Below, piece by piece: positions 12,986-45,310 of a stretch of 64,000 nt of DNA. Every line of letters starts with the position of its first letter. The stretch's first letter is position 1. Made by a program: the position numbers and the translations under genes. The stretch spans positions 1-64,000 of the forward strand of contig DATKXK010000003.1 in assembly GCA_035529075.1 (NCBI GenBank). The letters are read 5' to 3'. This DNA is from Acidobacteriota bacterium (GTDB lineage: Bacteria; Zixibacteria; MSB-5A5; GN15; FEB-12). Below the pieces are notes generated by a model. That model worked only from the letters and a program-made list of their open reading frames with translations. It searched no databases and had not been told where the DNA came from.

Positions 12986-13117
12986 CCAAATCGTGACTGT
13001 GATCGTCGTAAGTTATTGCATGATATTCAGCGATATAGCCAACCGGTGGGGGGTATAAGCAAATGATCCGGCTTGCATGTCGCTGCAAGCTTTTGGTTTA
13101 TATTAGGTTATAACAAA
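12980..13117. repeat. Right-end structure of cassette 1
   Basis: CTGTGACC at 12980 and TCGTGACT at 12991 (11 bp apart) overlap the end of the hydrolase gene. They are followed by GATATAGCC, a G-run and an A/T-rich stretch reaching the tmRNA 3' end at 13118. Confidence 0.65.
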
Positions 13118-13472
13118 TGGAGGTGGGGGGAATCGAACCCCCGTCCGAGTATAATGTCAAGCCGCCCTCTACGTGCGTAGCCTTCCTTTATTTTCTCGCG
13201 ATAGCCGCTGCCGGAAGACGGGCCACGACTACCGCCAGCCTTTTACTTTAAGCTCTCCTTAAAGGCGTCAGAGAGCCGAGCCTCCTTTAGCGACGCTGTA
13301 TCCCGGCCCTGGAGACAAAGGTCCAGGTACAACGGGCTGCGCTAGATACTAGGCAGCCATGGCGTAATTGTATTCGCCAATTGCTGGTTTTGCCCGGTTT
13401 GATAACGGGGACCCAGACAACCCCGGCACGCTGGCAACCCCCCACTATACCCGTCGAAACCAGGTCACCCCC
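13118..13472 (-). ncRNA. ssrA: tmRNA (transfer-messenger RNA)
   Basis: A complete one-piece tmRNA of about 355 nt. The 5' end GGGGGUG at 13472 pairs over seven bases (one G-U) with CACCUCC before the discriminator A at 13118; the CCA tail is not encoded. The conserved 5' block GGUUUCGACGGG and the T-arm GGGGG-TTCGATT-CCCCC are present. The reading frame at 13349-13393 starts with GCA and ends with TAG, giving the tag AKPAIGEYNYAMAA, close in ending to known tags. It rescues stalled ribosomes. Its 3' end is the target repeated four times to the left. Confidence 0.96.
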
Positions 13473-36982: not shown

Positions 36983-36998
36983 CTTGGCACAGGGCACA

Positions 36999-37724
36999 GT
37001 GGACACCAAGGCTGACACATACGATTTGCTGTCAATCGGGGCGCACCCGGATGACGTTGAGGTCGGCACCGGCGGGGTGCTGATCGATCTCTCCGAGCGC
37101 GGCTGCCGTTGCGGGATCGTGAGTCTGACCCGCGGTGAAATGGGCACCGGCGGCACGGCCGACGAACGATCCGCAGAGATGGCCGAGGCTGCCCGAATCA
37201 TGGGCGCGGACATCGTCAAGACCTTCGACTGGGGTGACACCCGCCTCGAGGACGCCTACGAAAAGCGGCTGGCACTGGCGGAAGTCATCCGGGCCGCCAG
37301 ACCTCGCGTTCTGCTGGCCCCCTGCCCGCAGGTTGGGCACGGCCTCCGGCAGTCACACCCGGATCACCTGGCGGCGGGTCTGCTGACGCTCAATGCCGCC
37401 AATCTGGCCGGCTTGAGAAAAGTCGGTCTGCCCGGTGAACCGCACACCGTGACGAGAGTCTTCCACTATTTTCTGCCGCCCGGGACCTGCCCGGACTTTG
37501 TCGTGGATATCACGCCCCATTACGACCGCTGGATAAAGGCTCTCTCGGCACACCGCTCGCAGTTTCTCAATCCGGAGAAATCCCGCGATTACCTCGAGAG
37601 TATCACGGCCAGGGCGCGCTCACACGGACTCCAGGTTCGCTGCAAGTACGGCCAGGCTTTTCTCGCGGCTGAACCGGTGGTGGTGGGAGATATCCTGACA
37701 CTGGCAACATTGGACGAACACTGA
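36999..37724 (+). CDS. bshB1: LmbE/PIG-L-type deacetylase, probably BshB1 (bacillithiol)
   Basis: About 241 residues from the GTG at 36999; a TTG at 36984 lies inside the terminator's T run and is less likely. The zinc motif H16-P-D-D19 in SIGAHPDDVEVG and the downstream SHPDHLAAG carry the metal ligands. TRGEMGTGGTADER is diagnostic of the BshB1 subgroup, which deacetylates GlcNAc-malate in bacillithiol synthesis. Neighbouring cysteine-supply genes (37754-39960) fit a low-molecular-weight thiol role. BshA and BshC are not in the window, so the pathway is inferred. Confidence 0.85.
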   Translation: MDTKADTYDLLSIGAHPDDVEVGTGGVLIDLSERGCRCGIVSLTRGEMGTGGTADERSAEMAEAARIMGADIVKTFDWGDTRLEDAYEKRLALAEVIRAARPRVLLAPCPQVGHGLRQSHPDHLAAGLLTLNAANLAGLRKVGLPGEPHTVTRVFHYFLPPGTCPDFVVDITPHYDRWIKALSAHRSQFLNPEKSRDYLESITARARSHGLQVRCKYGQAFLAAEPVVVGDILTLATLDEH

Positions 37725-37753: not shown

Positions 37754-38926
37754 TCAGGAGGTCGCCGTCCGCACGGCCGCGAAGGCGTTGCGCAGGTCGA
37801 TGATCAGATCGTCGATGTTCTCGACTCCGACCGAGAGCCGCACGAGGCTGTCGCCGATGCCGTTCTGCCGGCGGACCTCGCCCGGGACTGAGGCGTGCGT
37901 CATTGAAGCCGGGTGGCTGATCAATGATTCCACGCCGCCGAGTGACTCGGCCAGCACGAACACGCGCGTCGACGTGACGAATTTCCTGACCGTTTCGAAG
38001 TCGCCTTTCAATTCAAACGAGACCATCCCGCCGGGCAGACGCATCTTGTTCGGCACGGGACGGCCGTCCTGCCCCGGATAATAGACCTTCTCCACCTGGC
38101 CCACGGTCTCAAGAAACTCGACGATTTTCATCGAGTTTAGCGAATGCCGCTCCATGCGCAGGTGCAGAGTCTTCAGGCCCCGCAGGACGAGCCAGGATTC
38201 GAAGGGGCCGAGTATGGCCCCGATGGCGTTCTGGTGAAAGCCGATCTGCTCGGCGAGCTGCTCGTTCCTGACAACGAGAGCGCCGGCGATAACGTCGCAA
38301 TGGCCGGCAAGGTATTTCGATGCCGAGTGCATGACAATATCCGCGCCCAGGTCGAGCGGCTGCTGGATGTACGGACTGGCAAACGTGTTGTCGACCGCCG
38401 TCAGGATACCGCGATCTCCGGCCGTCCGCGAAACGGCGGGAATGTCCACGAGGTGCAGCAGCGGATTGGTCGGCGTCTCGATCCAGAATAGGCGCGTGCT
38501 CGGCGTCACGGCCGACTCGAAATCGGCCGGGTCGCGGCCGTCCACGTACGTGAAGCTGATGCCGAACTTCCGCATCACCTGCTCGAACTGGCGGCGCGTG
38601 CCGCCGTAGAGGTCATTCACGGCCACCACGTGGTCGCCGGCCTTGAGCAGGTGCAGTACCGTGGCGATGGCGGCCAGGCCGGACGAGAACGCATAGCCGT
38701 GCGTGCCGTTCTCCAGCGAGGCCAGGGCGTCCTCAAGCGCCTTGCGCGTGGGATTGGCCGAGCGGGAGTAAACGTAGCCGGATTCGTCGCCGGGAGACTT
38801 TACCTGATACGTGGAACTCGGGAAGATCGGGGTGGCGACCGATCCGGTCTGGTCCTGGGGCACCCGGCCGGCGTGAATCGCCCGGGTTTCGAACCGGCTG
38901 TTCTTCAGCGTGCGTTCATCCGCCAT
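37754..38926 (-). CDS. Cys/Met-metabolism PLP enzyme (cystathionine gamma-lyase/synthase family)
   Basis: 390 residues of normal family length. The PLP lysine is Lys204 in MHSASKYLAGH. SRSANPTRKALEDALASLE, YAFSSGLAAI, DLYGGTRRQF and VDNTFASPY are family hallmarks, with the Ser/Thr-rich end SLGGVESLISHPASMTHASV. It starts three bases after the upstream beta-synthase stop, so with that gene it would convert homocysteine and serine via cystathionine to cysteine (reverse transsulfuration). Gamma-lyase rather than gamma-synthase is favoured by the partner gene, not by sequence alone. The operon lies under the Cys-codon leader at 40062-40130. Confidence 0.9.
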   Translation of the reverse strand: MADERTLKNSRFETRAIHAGRVPQDQTGSVATPIFPSSTYQVKSPGDESGYVYSRSANPTRKALEDALASLENGTHGYAFSSGLAAIATVLHLLKAGDHVVAVNDLYGGTRRQFEQVMRKFGISFTYVDGRDPADFESAVTPSTRLFWIETPTNPLLHLVDIPAVSRTAGDRGILTAVDNTFASPYIQQPLDLGADIVMHSASKYLAGHCDVIAGALVVRNEQLAEQIGFHQNAIGAILGPFESWLVLRGLKTLHLRMERHSLNSMKIVEFLETVGQVEKVYYPGQDGRPVPNKMRLPGGMVSFELKGDFETVRKFVTSTRVFVLAESLGGVESLISHPASMTHASVPGEVRRQNGIGDSLVRLSVGVENIDDLIIDLRNAFAAVRTATS

Positions 38927-38928
38927 GT

Positions 38929-39960
38929 CTAATTCAGAAATCCTTTCTCTTTCATCCAGTCGTCGTTGTACATCTTGCTGATATACTTGGCGCCGCTGTC
39001 GGGCAGGATAACCACCACCGTCTTGTCGGCCTCGAGTTTCGCGGCGTGCTTCAGAGCAACGTGCACGGCCGCACCGGAGGACCCGCCGACGAAAATCCCC
39101 TCTGTACGCGTCAGTTCACGACCGGCCAGGAAGCACTCCTCGTCCGTCACCTGGTAGATCCTGTCAATGTACGAAAAATCGATCGACGGGCACAGCATAT
39201 CCTCCCCGATTCCTTCCACCTGATAGGTCCGGGGCCGAACAAGAGTCCCGTCCCGGTGATACTGGTAGTACACCGACCCGACCGGATCCGCCGCAACAAC
39301 CTCGATGTTCGGCTTCTTCTCCTTGAGAAACCTCGCCGTCCCCGAAATGGTGCCTCCGGTTCCGATGCCGCCGACCAGAACGTCAAGGCGGCCTCCCGTC
39401 TGCCGCCAGATCTCCGGTCCCGTACTCCGATAGTGGGCTTCGGCGTTGTTCAGGTTGAAGTACTGGCCGATCCAGAAAGAGCCGGGGGTCTCGCGATGCA
39501 GCCGTTTGCCCGTCTCGTAGTAGCTCTCGGGCGAGTCCGCCGGGATGTCGGTCGGGCAGATGTGGACCTCGGCACCAAATGCCTTGAGCGTATCCACCTT
39601 TTCCCGGGACATTTTGTCCGGAACCGTCAGAATCGCCTGGTAGCCGTTGGCGGAGGCAAACATGGCGACGGCTGCCCCGGTGTTGCCCGAGGTGGCTTCG
39701 ACAATCGTCCCGCCCGGTCTGAGTTCGCCTGACTCCACGGCTTTCTTCAGGATGTACACGACCATGCGGTCCTTAATCGAGCCGGACGGGTTGAGAAATT
39801 CCGGCTTGACCAGGATGGCGGCTTTGACGTCGCGGCGGCTGGTCATGCGGCGCAGCCTGACCAGCGGCGTGTTGCCGACCACCTCTGTTATGTCGTCGGC
39901 ATAGAAGCCGTTAGAAGCTTTTGGCGCTCGATGGCGCCCAAATAGTTTGGTCTTTCTCAT
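38929..39960 (-). CDS. Cystathionine beta-synthase/cysteine synthase-family PLP enzyme
   Basis: 343 residues without C-terminal CBS regulatory domains. The PLP lysine is Lys63 in NPSGSIKDRM; the phosphate and substrate loops are EATSGNTGAAV (91-95) and GGIGTGGTISG. YQVEGIGEDM and VGGSSGAAV are conserved. A 20-residue N-terminal extension precedes the fold. It could be O-acetylserine sulfhydrylase or cystathionine beta-synthase; pairing with a gamma-lyase-family gene favours beta-synthase. It is the first structural gene after the cysteine-leader attenuator. Confidence 0.9.
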   Translation of the reverse strand: MRKTKLFGRHRAPKASNGFYADDITEVVGNTPLVRLRRMTSRRDVKAAILVKPEFLNPSGSIKDRMVVYILKKAVESGELRPGGTIVEATSGNTGAAVAMFASANGYQAILTVPDKMSREKVDTLKAFGAEVHICPTDIPADSPESYYETGKRLHRETPGSFWIGQYFNLNNAEAHYRSTGPEIWRQTGGRLDVLVGGIGTGGTISGTARFLKEKKPNIEVVAADPVGSVYYQYHRDGTLVRPRTYQVEGIGEDMLCPSIDFSYIDRIYQVTDEECFLAGRELTRTEGIFVGGSSGAAVHVALKHAAKLEADKTVVVILPDSGAKYISKMYNDDWMKEKGFLN

Positions 39961-39996
39961 GACTATACCTGGCTTAAGCTGGTTAATTATTCGGAT

Positions 39997-40028
39997 AAAA
40001 AAAATCCACCATCGTCAGCCGAGGTGGA
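39997..40028 (-). terminator. Attenuator-type terminator of the cysteine operon
   Basis: On the minus strand TCCACC...GGTGGA (inner TCG/CGA pairs) followed by eight T residues. It lies between the Cys-codon leader ORF and the beta-synthase gene, the place of a transcription attenuator. The preceding segment GGAGTGGGCC could instead pair with the 5' half of this stem. Confidence 0.8.
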
Positions 40029-40061
40029 CCCTGCATACCCGGGGATTACTGTACCGGCACC

Positions 40062-40130
40062 TTAGGGCATGGCTCGGCCCACTCCTGCGCTACAACAACA
40101 ACAATCCGTATGCGGGGTAGTTCTGCTCAT
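40062..40130 (-). CDS. Leader peptide with four consecutive Cys codons
   Basis: A 22-residue ORF starting at ATG 40130 and stopping at TAA 40062-40064. Residues 10-13 are four UGU Cys codons in a row, an extreme bias for a short leader. It lies about 20 bases after a strong promoter (40160-40187), before a terminator (39997-40028) and the cystathionine beta-synthase/gamma-lyase operon. This is the layout of amino-acid attenuation: ribosome stalling at Cys codons when charged tRNA-Cys is low would alter folding and allow read-through. Cys-rich leader ORFs upstream of sulfur genes are known in actinobacteria. The start could also be GTG at 40133, better spaced from AGGGAC. Confidence 0.75.
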   Translation of the reverse strand: MSRTTPHTDCCCCSAGVGRAMP

Positions 40131-40159
40131 CACGATAAATATGTCCCTAATCTGTCTAT

Positions 40160-40187
40160 ATTGTACTGCCGGTCCCGGAATTGTCAA
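40160..40187 (-). promoter_or_regulatory. Sigma70-type promoter of the cysteine operon
   Basis: On the minus strand a perfect TTGACA (40182-40187) and TACAAT (40160-40165) with a 16-base spacer. Transcription would start near 40153, about 20 bases before the leader ORF. Confidence 0.8.
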
Positions 40188-40394
40188 GCGATTTGTCTCC
40201 GAACCGGTCGCGGCGGCGGCATTCTGGTCAAACGCTGAACAGCACGCCGGCAAAAACCGTTTGACAAACAAAAACCGATTTTCGTAGTATTATCGGCCAT
40301 TTGAGGCCGGTGGCCCGATCAGCGCTTCGTGCGGTTTAGCCACCGGCACGTCAGTTGTGTTTTGGCATGAACCGAACTGTATGTCAGGGACAAG

Positions 40395-40568
40395 ATGTTT
40401 TGCGCTCAATGCCTGGAGAGAATCACCGGAAAGCCCATCCGACAGGGCGGGGAGTACTTCTGCTCCCTGGAGTGCGCTAACCTCGCCTCCGGTATCGACG
40501 TGGAAGAAGAGAGTGAGGGGTACTACGAGGAGGAACCGATAGCGGGCCTCTACGAAGAAGAAGAATAG
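40395..40568 (+). CDS. Small zinc-ribbon protein with acidic tail
   Basis: 57 residues with AGGGA before the ATG. Cys3-Ala-Gln-Cys6 and Cys23-Ser-Leu-Glu-Cys27 form a likely treble-clef or zinc-ribbon metal site (similar spacing to MYND or CxxC...CxxxC knuckles). Residues 36-57 are very acidic (about half Glu). No family was named. It lies alone between the divergent cysteine operon and greA. It could be a small protein- or RNA-polymerase-binding factor, but that is only a guess. Confidence 0.6.
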   Translation: MFCAQCLERITGKPIRQGGEYFCSLECANLASGIDVEEESEGYYEEEPIAGLYEEEE

Positions 40569-40593
40569 GTCCAATCCTTCGCTGGTACCTGCC

Positions 40594-41070
40594 TTAGTCT
40601 CGCGAGATCTTTAGTATTTCATACCTGATCGGCCCGGCGGGAACCGTAAACTCGACCACGTCACCCACCGAGTGGCCGAGAAGCGCCTGACCTATCGGCG
40701 ACTTGACCGATATTATATCCTCGTCGACATCCACCTCGTCCGGGGGGCTGATGGTATACTGAATCTCTTCGCCGCGGTCAAGGTCCCTGACAAGAACCCG
40801 GGCGAACAGGTAAACCTTGTCAGACGGAATCTTGTCAACGTCAACCGTCCGGACGCGCGAGAGTTTGTCCTCGAGTTCGGCCACCTTCCTCTCCAGCAGT
40901 CGCTGGACCTCCTTGGCGGCGTGGTATTCGGCGTTTTCGGCAAGATCGCCCAGAGCCCTGGCCCGCTTTATTTCGGCGACCAGTTTGGGGCGTTCCTCAA
41001 ATTTCAGCCGTCTCAACTCGGCCTCAAGCTTGAGACGGCCTTCTTTTGATAGGTATATTGGCTCCACCAT
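40594..41070 (-). CDS. greA: Transcript-cleavage factor GreA
   Basis: 157 residues from the ATG at 41070. The N-terminal coiled coil (YLSKEGRLKLEAELRRLK, LGDLAENAEYHAAKE with the catalytic acidic tip DLAEN) and C-terminal FKBP-like domain (SPIGQALLGHSVGDVVEF) are complete. GreA binds the RNA polymerase secondary channel and rescues backtracked complexes. Length and motifs are normal. The ribosome site is weak. Confidence 0.95.
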   Translation of the reverse strand: MVEPIYLSKEGRLKLEAELRRLKFEERPKLVAEIKRARALGDLAENAEYHAAKEVQRLLERKVAELEDKLSRVRTVDVDKIPSDKVYLFARVLVRDLDRGEEIQYTISPPDEVDVDEDIISVKSPIGQALLGHSVGDVVEFTVPAGPIRYEILKISRD

Positions 41071-41092
41071 ACCGAGACAATATACAACCGCT

Positions 41093-42484
41093 TTACCTAT
41101 CCTGCAACGACGGAGTGGAGCGCCCGGCCAGAGCAAAGAAGAGAATTACCGATATCAGCAGCCCGGGAAATATCGGTTGCAGGTCGAACCAGTAGTTGCC
41201 GGTCGGCGTCAGGTACTGCGACAGGTACCAGACAAGCGAGACCAGGCCACTGACCACGACGACGGCAAAGGCAGCCGTGGGGGAAAGACGTCGCCGGCCG
41301 ACGAAGGAGAAGAAGACGGGCACCAGCAGAGCCGGCGTGCCGATGGAGCCCAGCGTGTACCAGATATCGACCACCGAGCGGAAAAACACGGCCAGCACGA
41401 CCGCCAGTACCACGGAAATGAGCAGGCCGAGGCGAGTATAGAACAGGATCTGCCGGTCGGTCAGGCGCGCCAGCCGTCCCGCAATGTCGTTGCCAAAAGT
41501 GCTGGCGGCGATAAAGGAGTAGGAATCGACGGTCGACATGACGGTGGCCAGCAGCGACAGGGCGAACAACCCGAGCAATCCGCTCGGCAGGACGCGCAAC
41601 GCCAGAGTGGGAAACGAGGCCACGGGATCAGCCAGGTCGGGCAGGAGCGCGCGGGCATACAGGCCGCAGGAAGTGGTGAGGAAATCAAACACCATCCAGC
41701 AGACGATGGAGACCAGAATCCCGGTGCGTGCCGTGCGGGCATCCCTGACCGCGTAACACCTCTGGTAAAAAGCCGGTTCGATAAGCGTCGCCAGGGCGAT
41801 CACGTACCACGTGGCGATGTACCACCCGGACCTGCCCCCGTGCCACGTCAGGTGGCCGGCCGGCAGGGCCGCGCGCAGAAACTCCAGCGAGCCGTACCCG
41901 GACACAAGGACCGCGAACAGCACGATAAACCCCGCGAACATCAGCCCAAACTGGAGCAGGTCGGTACGGACGACCGACCGAAACCCGCCGAGAAACACGT
42001 ACACTATCGAAAAGAGCGTCCCGGCCGCCACTCCCGCCCAGAACGGCCAGCCGAACAGGGCTTCGCACAGGACGCCCAGCATAAGCACGTATGCAGCCGG
42101 TACGGTCATCACGAAGATGATGACCGAGCCGAGCACGGCGGTCCTGTCGTCATAGGTCTGGGCCAGGCGTTCGGGGATGGTCAGGACCTCCGACCGCCGC
42201 GCCTTCTCGGCCAGGAACAACGCGAACAGAAGAGCCGCCAGGTAATAGGGGACGCCGAAAACCAGCCAGTTGGACAGACCGTGCAGGTAGCTGTATTCCC
42301 CGACGCCGAGAATTCCCCCGTACCACGTGGACACAAGGGAAGCCACAAAGGCGGGCAGGGTCAGAACCCGCCCGCCCACGATAAGCTCGGCCACCGAACT
42401 GCTCCTGCTCAGCCGCCGGTAGAACCCCAGCCCCAGCAGGCAAACCAGGTAGAGGACAATCAGGCTGTAGTCTACGGCATGCAT
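41093..42484 (-). CDS. Sodium:solute symporter (SSS family), probably thiamine-related
   Basis: 463 residues with about 13 membrane helices in the LeuT-type SSS arrangement. STWYGGILGVGEYSYLHGLSNW and DYSLIVLYLVCLLGLGFYRR at the start, and GGFRSVVRTDLLQFGLMFAG in the middle, are SSS signatures. It follows the TonB receptor gene, six bases away, which has a TPP riboswitch, so the likely substrate is thiamine or a precursor (inference from context). Its stop lies 22 bases before the greA start. No terminator was seen between them. Confidence 0.85.
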   Translation of the reverse strand: MHAVDYSLIVLYLVCLLGLGFYRRLSRSSSVAELIVGGRVLTLPAFVASLVSTWYGGILGVGEYSYLHGLSNWLVFGVPYYLAALLFALFLAEKARRSEVLTIPERLAQTYDDRTAVLGSVIIFVMTVPAAYVLMLGVLCEALFGWPFWAGVAAGTLFSIVYVFLGGFRSVVRTDLLQFGLMFAGFIVLFAVLVSGYGSLEFLRAALPAGHLTWHGGRSGWYIATWYVIALATLIEPAFYQRCYAVRDARTARTGILVSIVCWMVFDFLTTSCGLYARALLPDLADPVASFPTLALRVLPSGLLGLFALSLLATVMSTVDSYSFIAASTFGNDIAGRLARLTDRQILFYTRLGLLISVVLAVVLAVFFRSVVDIWYTLGSIGTPALLVPVFFSFVGRRRLSPTAAFAVVVVSGLVSLVWYLSQYLTPTGNYWFDLQPIFPGLLISVILFFALAGRSTPSLQDR

Positions 42485-42490
42485 GAAGCG

Positions 42491-45013
42491 TCAGAACAAT
42501 TCCAGACTCACCTGCCCGTAAAATGACCGTTCGGGGGCCACAAAGTACGCCGCCCATCCGTCAACCTGCACGGGTGATCCCGGCTGGCGCCATGCCCAGT
42601 TCTCCGCGTACGAGGCGACGGCTTCATACTTCTCGTCGAACAGATTGTCCACCCGCACGTTCAGCTTCAGCGTCCCGAGCTGCAGAAACTCGCCCACACT
42701 CACCGATGCAGCCAGGGAGGACACGAATACCGGATCTATCGAGAAATCCTCGATATTCCAGAGGTCCGCATACTGGCGGCCGATCAACTTGCCGTGATAC
42801 GTCAGCCGCAACCGGCCCTTCTCATAGTCAGCCAGCACATTGGCCAGGTACTCCGGGAAGTTCGGCAGCTTCTTGTCCTTGCAGTTCACAGACTCGCTGA
42901 GCTTTACGGTATCACCCAAAATCGTGACTGAATCGACCCTATACTGGAGCAGATAGTCCTTGACGCGATTGTAGTTGAAGGCAAAGTTGCCGTTAACAAT
43001 CAACTCGTCCAGGAGCTTGACGACCCCCGTAAGTTCGACGCCGGAATGGTAGGACCCGTCGACGTTGATTGTCACGTCGCGGCCTTCCCTGGACCCGGCG
43101 TACTCCAGAATCTCGTTTTTGAAATCCATGAAGAAGAGGTTGACACCCAGGGCGTACCGGTCGGTGCGGTACCTGCCGCCCAGTTCAAAATCATACAGCC
43201 GTTCCGGTTTCGCCGTGACGTCACCGGAGGCCGCGTATATGACGCCGCCGGGGTACGTGCCGACCGAGTCGATCATCTCCAGGGACGGAAACGCGCCCGG
43301 CTTGTCGGCGTCGTAAATGTCATCGTCGGTAGGCGCCCGCGAGGAAACCGCGGCGTTGGCAAACAGGCTCAGGCGCTCGTCAACCGTGTAGACAAGCCCC
43401 GCCCTCGGAGAGAAAAAGAGCCAGTCGACGTCAAAGTCATAACCCGGGAACGGTCCCATGCGCGTCTGGTCCAGCGAGTACCGCTCGTACCGGACCTGTG
43501 CGGTGACCTGGGCAGCCAGTTCGTCCGTCAGCCGGTAATACTCCTGACCGTACAGGGAGGCCACGGCTTTCCTGCCCCCGTACAGGTAGTACCGGTGGCG
43601 CGGGCTTACGGCGCCGTCAATATGCTCGGCCCAGACGACCTCGCCCCAGTGGTCGGAATCATACAGGTAGAACGAACCTCCCAGCGCGTGCGACCCATGA
43701 TCATGCTGGAAGTCCAGGCGGGGGTTCCAGCCGTACTGGTTCTTGTAAACCCATTTCTGGCGAACCAGATCACCAGACGTCTGCCCGCCGGTCTGTGACG
43801 GGTCGATGCTGTACTCGATGTAATCCTGCCCCGGTTTGAACTGCTCGTAGTACCCTTTGCCCCGTATGTAGTACAGCGTGTTGGCCAGAACAACCTGCTC
43901 GGAAAGTTGGATAACGTTGTGCAACTGGTAGTGCGGCTGGTTGAAATTGTCGGTGGCGTTGCTGTACTCCAGCAGCTCGTAACCGGCAATCCCGGGGTTG
44001 GCCAGGCGGTTGTCGCGCAGGACATCGCGATCGACGCCGTAGTAGGCCAGGTGCGTGCGGATCGGCCCGCCGTACACGTGAAGTTCCGTCGTCATCCCGT
44101 GATCGAGCCGCCCCGCCGAAAGATAGTACGACCAGCCGTTATACCAGCTCTGCTCGCGGTAGCCGCTGGAGGACTGGCGCGAGAACCGTCCGTAAAACGC
44201 CCAGCGACCGTCAACCAGCCCGGTGGCGTATTCGACCGATTGTTTGGAGATCTGCCGGCCGAAGAACTTACCGCCGGACGTGAACTCCCCGTACCCGGTC
44301 CTTAACCGGGCGCCGCGCGTTTTGTCGAACACGCTCGAAACGATATTGATGGAACCACCGAACGAGGCGTCACCGTAAAGCGAGTTGCCGACCCCGCGCT
44401 GCACCTGAATGTCGGAGACGTTGGCGCCGAAATCCGGCAGATCGACGAAATACGTGGCCTGGTCTTCGGGGTCGTTCAGCGGCACGCCGTTGATATACGT
44501 CGTGACGCGTTTGTCATCGAAGCCACGGATCTTCAGGTAGCTGTAACCCAGCGGCGCGCCGCCGTCCGTGTACGCTAACAGGTTGGGCGTCGACGCGAGC
44601 AGAAGTGGGAACTCCGCGACCGTGTAATCGCGTTCGATCTCGGCGCGGGTGACGTTGTCAAAGGCAATGGCGTCGACTCCCGACTGCACGCGGTCGGCCG
44701 TGACCAGAATGCCGTCGATCTCATAGTACATCGTCTCCAGCATCACCACCGAGGGGACATCATCCGCTCGGAACTGGCGCGGTTTGTAGCCGATTGCGGA
44801 AAACGTCACGCGCGTCACGGTCTCGGGAACCTCCATGACGTACCGTCCGCGCTCGTCGGTCTGGCCCGCGACACCGCTCACATCGGTGACGACCGAAACG
44901 CCCACGAGCGCCTCGCCGTCCGGAGCGACAACCGTGCCGCTCAACTCGGCGCCGCCGGCCGAAGACAGGAGGCCGGCACAGAGCAGAGCCAGGATTACGA
45001 TGGTTTGTTTCAT
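42491..45013 (-). CDS. TonB-dependent receptor under TPP riboswitch control
   Basis: 840 residues. The signal peptide ends near SSAGGA. A CarboxypepD_reg-like domain (SGTVVAPDGEALVGVSVV) is followed by the plug (SYLKIRGFDDKRVTTYINGVPLND, SLYGDASFGGSINIVSS) and a 22-stranded barrel ending in the aromatic-rich strand FYGQVSLELF. The TPP aptamer 100 bases upstream indicates a thiamine-related ligand, as for thiamine-regulated outer-membrane receptors described in Bacteroidetes. The sodium symporter follows at once. GCGAGG lies before the start. Confidence 0.92.
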   Translation of the reverse strand: MKQTIVILALLCAGLLSSAGGAELSGTVVAPDGEALVGVSVVTDVSGVAGQTDERGRYVMEVPETVTRVTFSAIGYKPRQFRADDVPSVVMLETMYYEIDGILVTADRVQSGVDAIAFDNVTRAEIERDYTVAEFPLLLASTPNLLAYTDGGAPLGYSYLKIRGFDDKRVTTYINGVPLNDPEDQATYFVDLPDFGANVSDIQVQRGVGNSLYGDASFGGSINIVSSVFDKTRGARLRTGYGEFTSGGKFFGRQISKQSVEYATGLVDGRWAFYGRFSRQSSSGYREQSWYNGWSYYLSAGRLDHGMTTELHVYGGPIRTHLAYYGVDRDVLRDNRLANPGIAGYELLEYSNATDNFNQPHYQLHNVIQLSEQVVLANTLYYIRGKGYYEQFKPGQDYIEYSIDPSQTGGQTSGDLVRQKWVYKNQYGWNPRLDFQHDHGSHALGGSFYLYDSDHWGEVVWAEHIDGAVSPRHRYYLYGGRKAVASLYGQEYYRLTDELAAQVTAQVRYERYSLDQTRMGPFPGYDFDVDWLFFSPRAGLVYTVDERLSLFANAAVSSRAPTDDDIYDADKPGAFPSLEMIDSVGTYPGGVIYAASGDVTAKPERLYDFELGGRYRTDRYALGVNLFFMDFKNEILEYAGSREGRDVTINVDGSYHSGVELTGVVKLLDELIVNGNFAFNYNRVKDYLLQYRVDSVTILGDTVKLSESVNCKDKKLPNFPEYLANVLADYEKGRLRLTYHGKLIGRQYADLWNIEDFSIDPVFVSSLAASVSVGEFLQLGTLKLNVRVDNLFDEKYEAVASYAENWAWRQPGSPVQVDGWAAYFVAPERSFYGQVSLELF

Positions 45014-45112
45014 GACAGAAACCTCGCGTTAAACGGTTCATGTTTCGCAAGATTCCGTCCTGACGTGGTAGGTGAGCCCGGACTACTGGCTCGGGGGATG
45101 CGTCAGACATCT

Positions 45113-45192
45113 CCGTTTCCCTACGCCGGCACTACCCGGATCAGGTCTGGGGGTATAATCTCAGGCGGTGTTTATTACGCCACCCCCAACGG
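45113..45192 (-). promoter_or_regulatory. TPP (thiamine pyrophosphate) riboswitch
   Basis: On the minus strand the THI-box core is complete: GGGGGTG, then CTGAGA, ACCCCCAGACCTGATC, GGGTAGTGCCGGCGTAGGGA. The P1 ends CCGTT and AACGG pair (45188-45192 with 45113-45117). Downstream, GAGCC...GGGCTC could form the expression-platform hairpin before the receptor start at 45013. It represses when TPP is high. Confidence 0.93.
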
Positions 45193-45310
45193 AACTGCTG
45201 TCTCTACGACCACCAATTAGGCCGCCGGCCTCGGCCGGCGCAAGTGGTTTTTCGCGACCCCGGGCGTGCACTCGCTTCGCGCGGAGAGTCATCACGCGCG
45301 GCCCGAAAGG

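Follow-up and report, generated by a model that had tools for sequence, protein, structure and literature searches.

The window, a 64,000-nt stretch of contig DATKXK010000003.1 from a genome of Zixibacteria, a phylum of the FCB group, carries on its minus strand a two-gene operon preceded by a short leader. The first gene (38929-39960) encodes a CBS-like/cysteine synthase-like PLP enzyme of the PALP fold lacking the CBS regulatory domain; cystathionine beta-synthase was its closest NCBIfam model, of which it covers the N-terminal 321 of 457 positions, yet the score was below the NCBIfam cut-off, and the Pfam match was PALP. After a gap of 2 nt follows the second gene (37754-38926), assigned by family search to the cystathionine gamma-lyase/gamma-synthase family. 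Together, the two enzymes would presumably yield cysteine from homocysteine and serine by reverse transsulfuration, their substrates being predicted. A bacillithiol deacetylase gene, bshB1 (36984-37724, plus strand, above the NCBIfam cut-off), adjoins the operon in the opposite orientation, and bacillithiol itself contains cysteine.

Promoter, leader ORF and terminator in the window

Upstream of the operon, sequence inspection placed a -35 element TTGACA at 40182-40187 and, after a 16-nt spacer, a -10 element TACAAT at 40160-40165 (both minus strand). With 11 of 12 consensus matches, this was the top promoter-like site within 38500-43500, and TTGACA was found again 5' of most homologous leaders, with a spacer of 16 nt where it was read by eye. 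From the promoter position, transcription is predicted to start near 40153, leaving a 5' UTR of about 20 nt before a 22-aa leader ORF, MSRTTPHTDCCCCSAGVGRAMP*, on the minus strand (40062-40130; ATG at 40130, TAA at 40062), which has a GTG immediately 5' of the ATG and a weak Shine-Dalgarno site, and whose counterparts in other genomes are poly-Cys ORFs at the same place. Four consecutive UGU codons (40092-40103), recognized in the sequence and by pattern scan, form the proposed sensor. Beyond the ORF lies a predicted intrinsic terminator (39997-40028, minus strand), found at the same place in homologs, with the arms UCCACC (40028-40023) and GGUGGA (40010-40005) separated by 12 nt and followed by U8 (40004-39997); the first gene starts at 39960, about 36 nt past the U-run. 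The original prediction had claimed a TTGACA-16-TACAAT promoter, a 22-residue ORF with four UGU codons in a row and a strong terminator with eight T residues, all ahead of a cystathionine beta-synthase/gamma-lyase operon; the promoter and ORF proved exact to the base, the hairpin and U8 were confirmed in the sequence, and CBS-like and gamma-lyase/synthase family genes do lie directly 3'.

The pattern TGTTGYTGYTGY-N62..92-TTTTTT matched a single site in the 3.04-Mb genome, namely the window leader, and the reversed control pattern matched none. The small ORF upstream is divergent, and the terminator therefore serves the leader promoter, not an upstream gene. This small ORF (40396-40569, plus strand) encodes 57 aa with a CxxC motif and an acidic tail, and has its own promoter-like sequence, TTGACA-18-TAGTAT, at 40261-40290. 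An Rfam search of the window found no riboswitch or T-box at the leader, its only matches being a tmRNA gene (13115-13472, minus strand) and a TPP riboswitch (45101-45197, minus strand, above the gathering score). The latter stands directly 5' of a TonB-dependent-receptor-like gene (42491-45013), which together with a sodium/solute symporter gene is perhaps involved in thiamine uptake. Folding of the whole leader RNA revealed no unusual stability by itself (z -1.0), and the case therefore depends on comparative data.

Recurrence of Cys-run leaders in Zixibacteria

Orthologs of the CBS-like gene were present in most relatives. Of the 30 closest loci, five (window included), each from a different genus of the family, showed a Cys-run ORF and then a CCACC/GGUGG terminator 5' of the orthologous gene. 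Two more leaders came from a pattern scan of 194 genomes: one in G044, a congener of one of these five, and one in G022, where the gene directly behind the leader is a gamma-lyase-type gene on its own, with greA and a sodium symporter upstream as in the window. Six leaders then served to build a covariance model, which detected two further ones, in G059 and G067; both genomes belong to a different family of the order, and both leaders precede the orthologous gene, with peptides containing CGCC and CGCCC. Apart from the window's own genus, six genera of the order, spanning two families, carry homologous leaders. When a nine-leader model was searched against 132 Zixibacteria genomes, it recovered the same nine and none further; on inspection, low-scoring covariance-model matches turned out to be coding sequence, ferredoxin-like genes or the usual terminators at gene ends, and were rejected.

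Apart from the Cys run and, in several, a GR-x-MP-like tail, the leader peptides have little in common; the number of Cys residues ranges from 3 to 7, while the position of the run relative to the stop codon and the terminator is kept. The distance from first Cys codon to stop is 39 nt in all but two of the nine CBS/gamma-lyase leaders, where it is 33 and 36 nt, and the stop lies 28-34 nt from the terminator. Because the ORFs differ in length and sequence, this spacing is not mere inheritance of unchanged sequence. In ten leaders, 37 of the 46 Cys codons are UGU, versus 31% in window genes, one of the discovery patterns having demanded that UGU come first. Conservation of the Cys codons in relatives had been set beforehand as the test of the prediction, and it held, with Cys run, terminator and spacing all kept despite few other shared residues. 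The same observations bear on a different sensor, the Cys-rich peptide itself, which could act through metal or redox binding or as an arrest peptide irrespective of its codons, since Cys runs could be oxidised or bind metals. The varying Cys number and unconserved flanking residues, set against a conserved nucleotide spacing, together with downstream genes of cysteine synthesis, make such a peptide sensor very improbable.

Leaders were also found at other genes. A scan for poly-Cys ORFs followed by a U-run, made without regard to the downstream gene, gave 74 distinct sites, 14 of which passed one mechanical leader filter; 13 of these 14 stood before a CBS, gamma-lyase, cysK, cysM-mec or carbonic anhydrase gene. 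Wider patterns yielded cysK leaders in G031, G003, G042 and G029, and the covariance-model search supplied a six-Cys leader before a beta-carbonic anhydrase gene, also in G031, where the cysK leader is divergent from it. A counterpart precedes the orthologous beta-carbonic anhydrase gene of G080, which belongs to another family. Genes of this carbonic anhydrase family with Cys leaders lie in two families (L147, 1707-2312; L198; L197), and what precedes the ortholog in G061 is instead a gene whose end is rhodanese-like. In G064, the leader precedes a cysM-like gene and then a JAB-domain Mec-like gene, both identities being read from sequence; this pair (L225, 64-1453, minus strand) resembles the mycobacterial CysM/Mec route.

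In total, 16 leaders were identified in 15 of 132 Zixibacteria genomes, all 16 with an intrinsic terminator at a narrow distance. We weighed whether a constitutive terminator and a short ORF arising by chance could account for them without any regulation. Terminators by themselves are common and most relatives lack the leader; however, the combination of Cys run and terminator recurs ahead of cysteine genes in 15 genomes and was mostly found gene-blind, and coincidence is the least probable of the explanations considered. We lean towards a new cysteine attenuation regulon in Zixibacteria, of the classical intrinsic-terminator type, in which cbs-cgl, cysK, cysM-mec and beta-carbonic anhydrase genes each have leaders of their own. 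If so, the leaders would link a beta-carbonic anhydrase to the cysteine regulon, and this enzyme, too, would be tied to cysteine metabolism.

The distribution of the leaders is uneven. At CBS loci, a leader was present in 8 of 53 inspected, and most CBS orthologs of the phylum are without one. On the CBS tree, the leader label requires five changes and is more clustered than in most shuffles, still patchy; an old element may have been lost repeatedly, or the leaders may have been transferred. Rfam searches at 20 CBS genes of leaderless loci found no riboswitch or T-box. At 80 CBS/CysK loci from other phyla, where ORFs only were inspected, no four-Cys run lay upstream and a few short ORFs were loosely Cys-rich. 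Pattern matches from other phyla included no convincing leader on inspection, and those from a scan of viral contigs were dismissed as scattered hairpins without a U-tract after them.

Predicted antiterminator pairing and the proposed attenuation mechanism

In the window, duplex prediction identified segment 2 of a proposed antiterminator, AGGAGUGGGCCGAGCCAUGCCCU (40064-40086, minus strand), and segment 3, GGGUAUGCAGGGUCCACCUC (40021-40040, minus strand), which holds the terminator 5' arm and would pair with segment 2. The duplex between segment 2 and the terminator arm region reached -27.0 kcal/mol (p 0.007 versus shuffles). Segment 2 is flanked by the Cys run and the stop codon in the CBS/gamma-lyase leaders. 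Equilibrium folding of the complete leader under ribosome masks showed a clear switch in the window and G044 only, so that a kinetic argument was needed; because terminators win at equilibrium, this approach was replaced by folding before transcription of the terminator 3' arm, with the ribosome set at the first Cys codon. Under this regime, the predicted fold paired the segment just past the Cys codons with the terminator 5'-arm stretch in 10 of 10 leaders. Combined Fisher p values over the ten leaders were 8e-6 for the duplex (1000 dinucleotide shuffles of the segment) and 2e-7 for the fold (400 shuffles), both optimistic in that the species are not independent and at least two pairs are close relatives. 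A stricter count, limited to pairs between segment 2 and the six arm bases, gave p 0.007 and was judged too strict. For the six later-found leaders, the signal was weak (fold p 0.03, duplex p 0.52).

The pairing sequences themselves vary by lineage, being GGGCCGA/UCGGUCC in G005, GGGUCGGA/UUUCGAUCC in G030 and CGAGGUG/CACCUCG in G019. Because they differ between lineages while pairing is predicted in each, these sequences argue for selection on the pairing. The antiterminator suggested originally for the window, GGAGUGGGCC with GGUCCACCUC, has an equivalent of different sequence in the other leaders.

From the anatomy, conservation, spacing and pairing potential read in these genomes, we infer leader translation, ribosome stalling, termination efficiency and a response to cysteine as follows. 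RNA polymerase would start near 40153, and a ribosome would translate the 22-codon leader. With sufficient Cys-tRNA, the ribosome would clear the four UGU codons, reach the stop and cover segment 2, allowing the terminator (segments 3:4) to form and transcription to stop at the U-run. With scarce Cys-tRNA, the ribosome would stall on the UGU run and leave segment 2 free to pair with the terminator 5' arm, permitting readthrough into the CBS-like and gamma-lyase genes. The leader combines what characterizes such attenuators: a conserved run of codons (UGU x4) cognate to the operon product, a predicted intrinsic terminator between the leader ORF and the first gene, a mutually exclusive antiterminator starting just past the regulatory codons (weaker in the six later-found leaders), and a stop codon, 33-39 nt from the first Cys codon across the CBS/gamma-lyase leaders, placed for ribosome masking of segment 2. 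It matches no T-box or riboswitch family in Rfam. We consider it highly probable that the element is a cysteine-specific, ribosome-mediated transcription attenuator sensing Cys-tRNA charging.

An alternative is control at the translation level, as in mycobacterial poly-Cys leaders. To our knowledge, the only experimentally supported poly-Cys leaders in bacteria act on translation, and the leaders of G001, G030 and G022, judged by promoter position, look nearly leaderless. However, the mycobacterial type has no such intrinsic terminator (PMC1262725), whereas a strong one with a U-run stands at a narrow distance in 16 of 16 leaders here, and in the window about 36 nt separate the U-run from the gene start. 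Translational control is accordingly very unlikely, and we favour transcription attenuation.

Relation to known attenuators and cysteine leaders

For a long time, leader-peptide attenuation was known chiefly from Proteobacteria and Actinobacteria (PMC2965389); according to Naville and Gautheret (2010), no other group had a demonstrated leader-peptide system before their own Firmicutes cases. Cys leaders were described in Mycobacterium, in P. acnes and before cbs of B. longum (Seliverstov 2005, PMC1262725). The remark in the original prediction that Cys leaders are reported in actinobacteria thus agrees with the literature, with the qualification that those leaders have no obvious intrinsic terminators (PMC1262725). 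Mycobacterial poly-Cys leaders are small leaderless ORFs (Shell 2015, PMC4633059) and are reported to act by translation attenuation (Canestrari 2020, as cited in PMC13236596). Our literature search found no paper on Cys leaders in Zixibacteria; an earlier mention elsewhere is possible (Lopatovskaya 2010 lay outside the search).

The sequence comparisons give good support to a known mechanism in a new form and a new phylum, namely Cys leaders with a predicted intrinsic terminator in Zixibacteria. Terminator and antiterminator together in a distant uncultured phylum would mean that the mechanism has arisen or persisted elsewhere, and the leader design provides a simple signature by which cysteine genes of uncultured bacteria can be recognized in sequence.

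Among known systems, the trp, his, leu and phe attenuators of Proteobacteria show the same arrangement of promoter, short ORF with a run of product codons, antiterminator and terminator before the first gene, likewise with the stop codon positioned to mask segment 2; the Zixibacteria leaders differ in sensing, as proposed, cysteine, and sequence similarity is not claimed. The actinobacterial poly-Cys leaders (Mycobacterium cys operons, Propionibacterium acnes, Bifidobacterium longum cbs) are alike in placing a short Cys-run ORF before cys operons, including cbs, whereas the Zixibacteria leaders all carry an intrinsic terminator and, at least at cbs-cgl, a matching antiterminator. Sulfur genes of Firmicutes are controlled at the RNA level by tRNA charging through tRNA-Cys T-boxes; the Zixibacteria leaders would share that level of control and that signal, but unlike these T-boxes and riboswitches they have no Rfam match, and would read Cys-tRNA charging through a translating ribosome.
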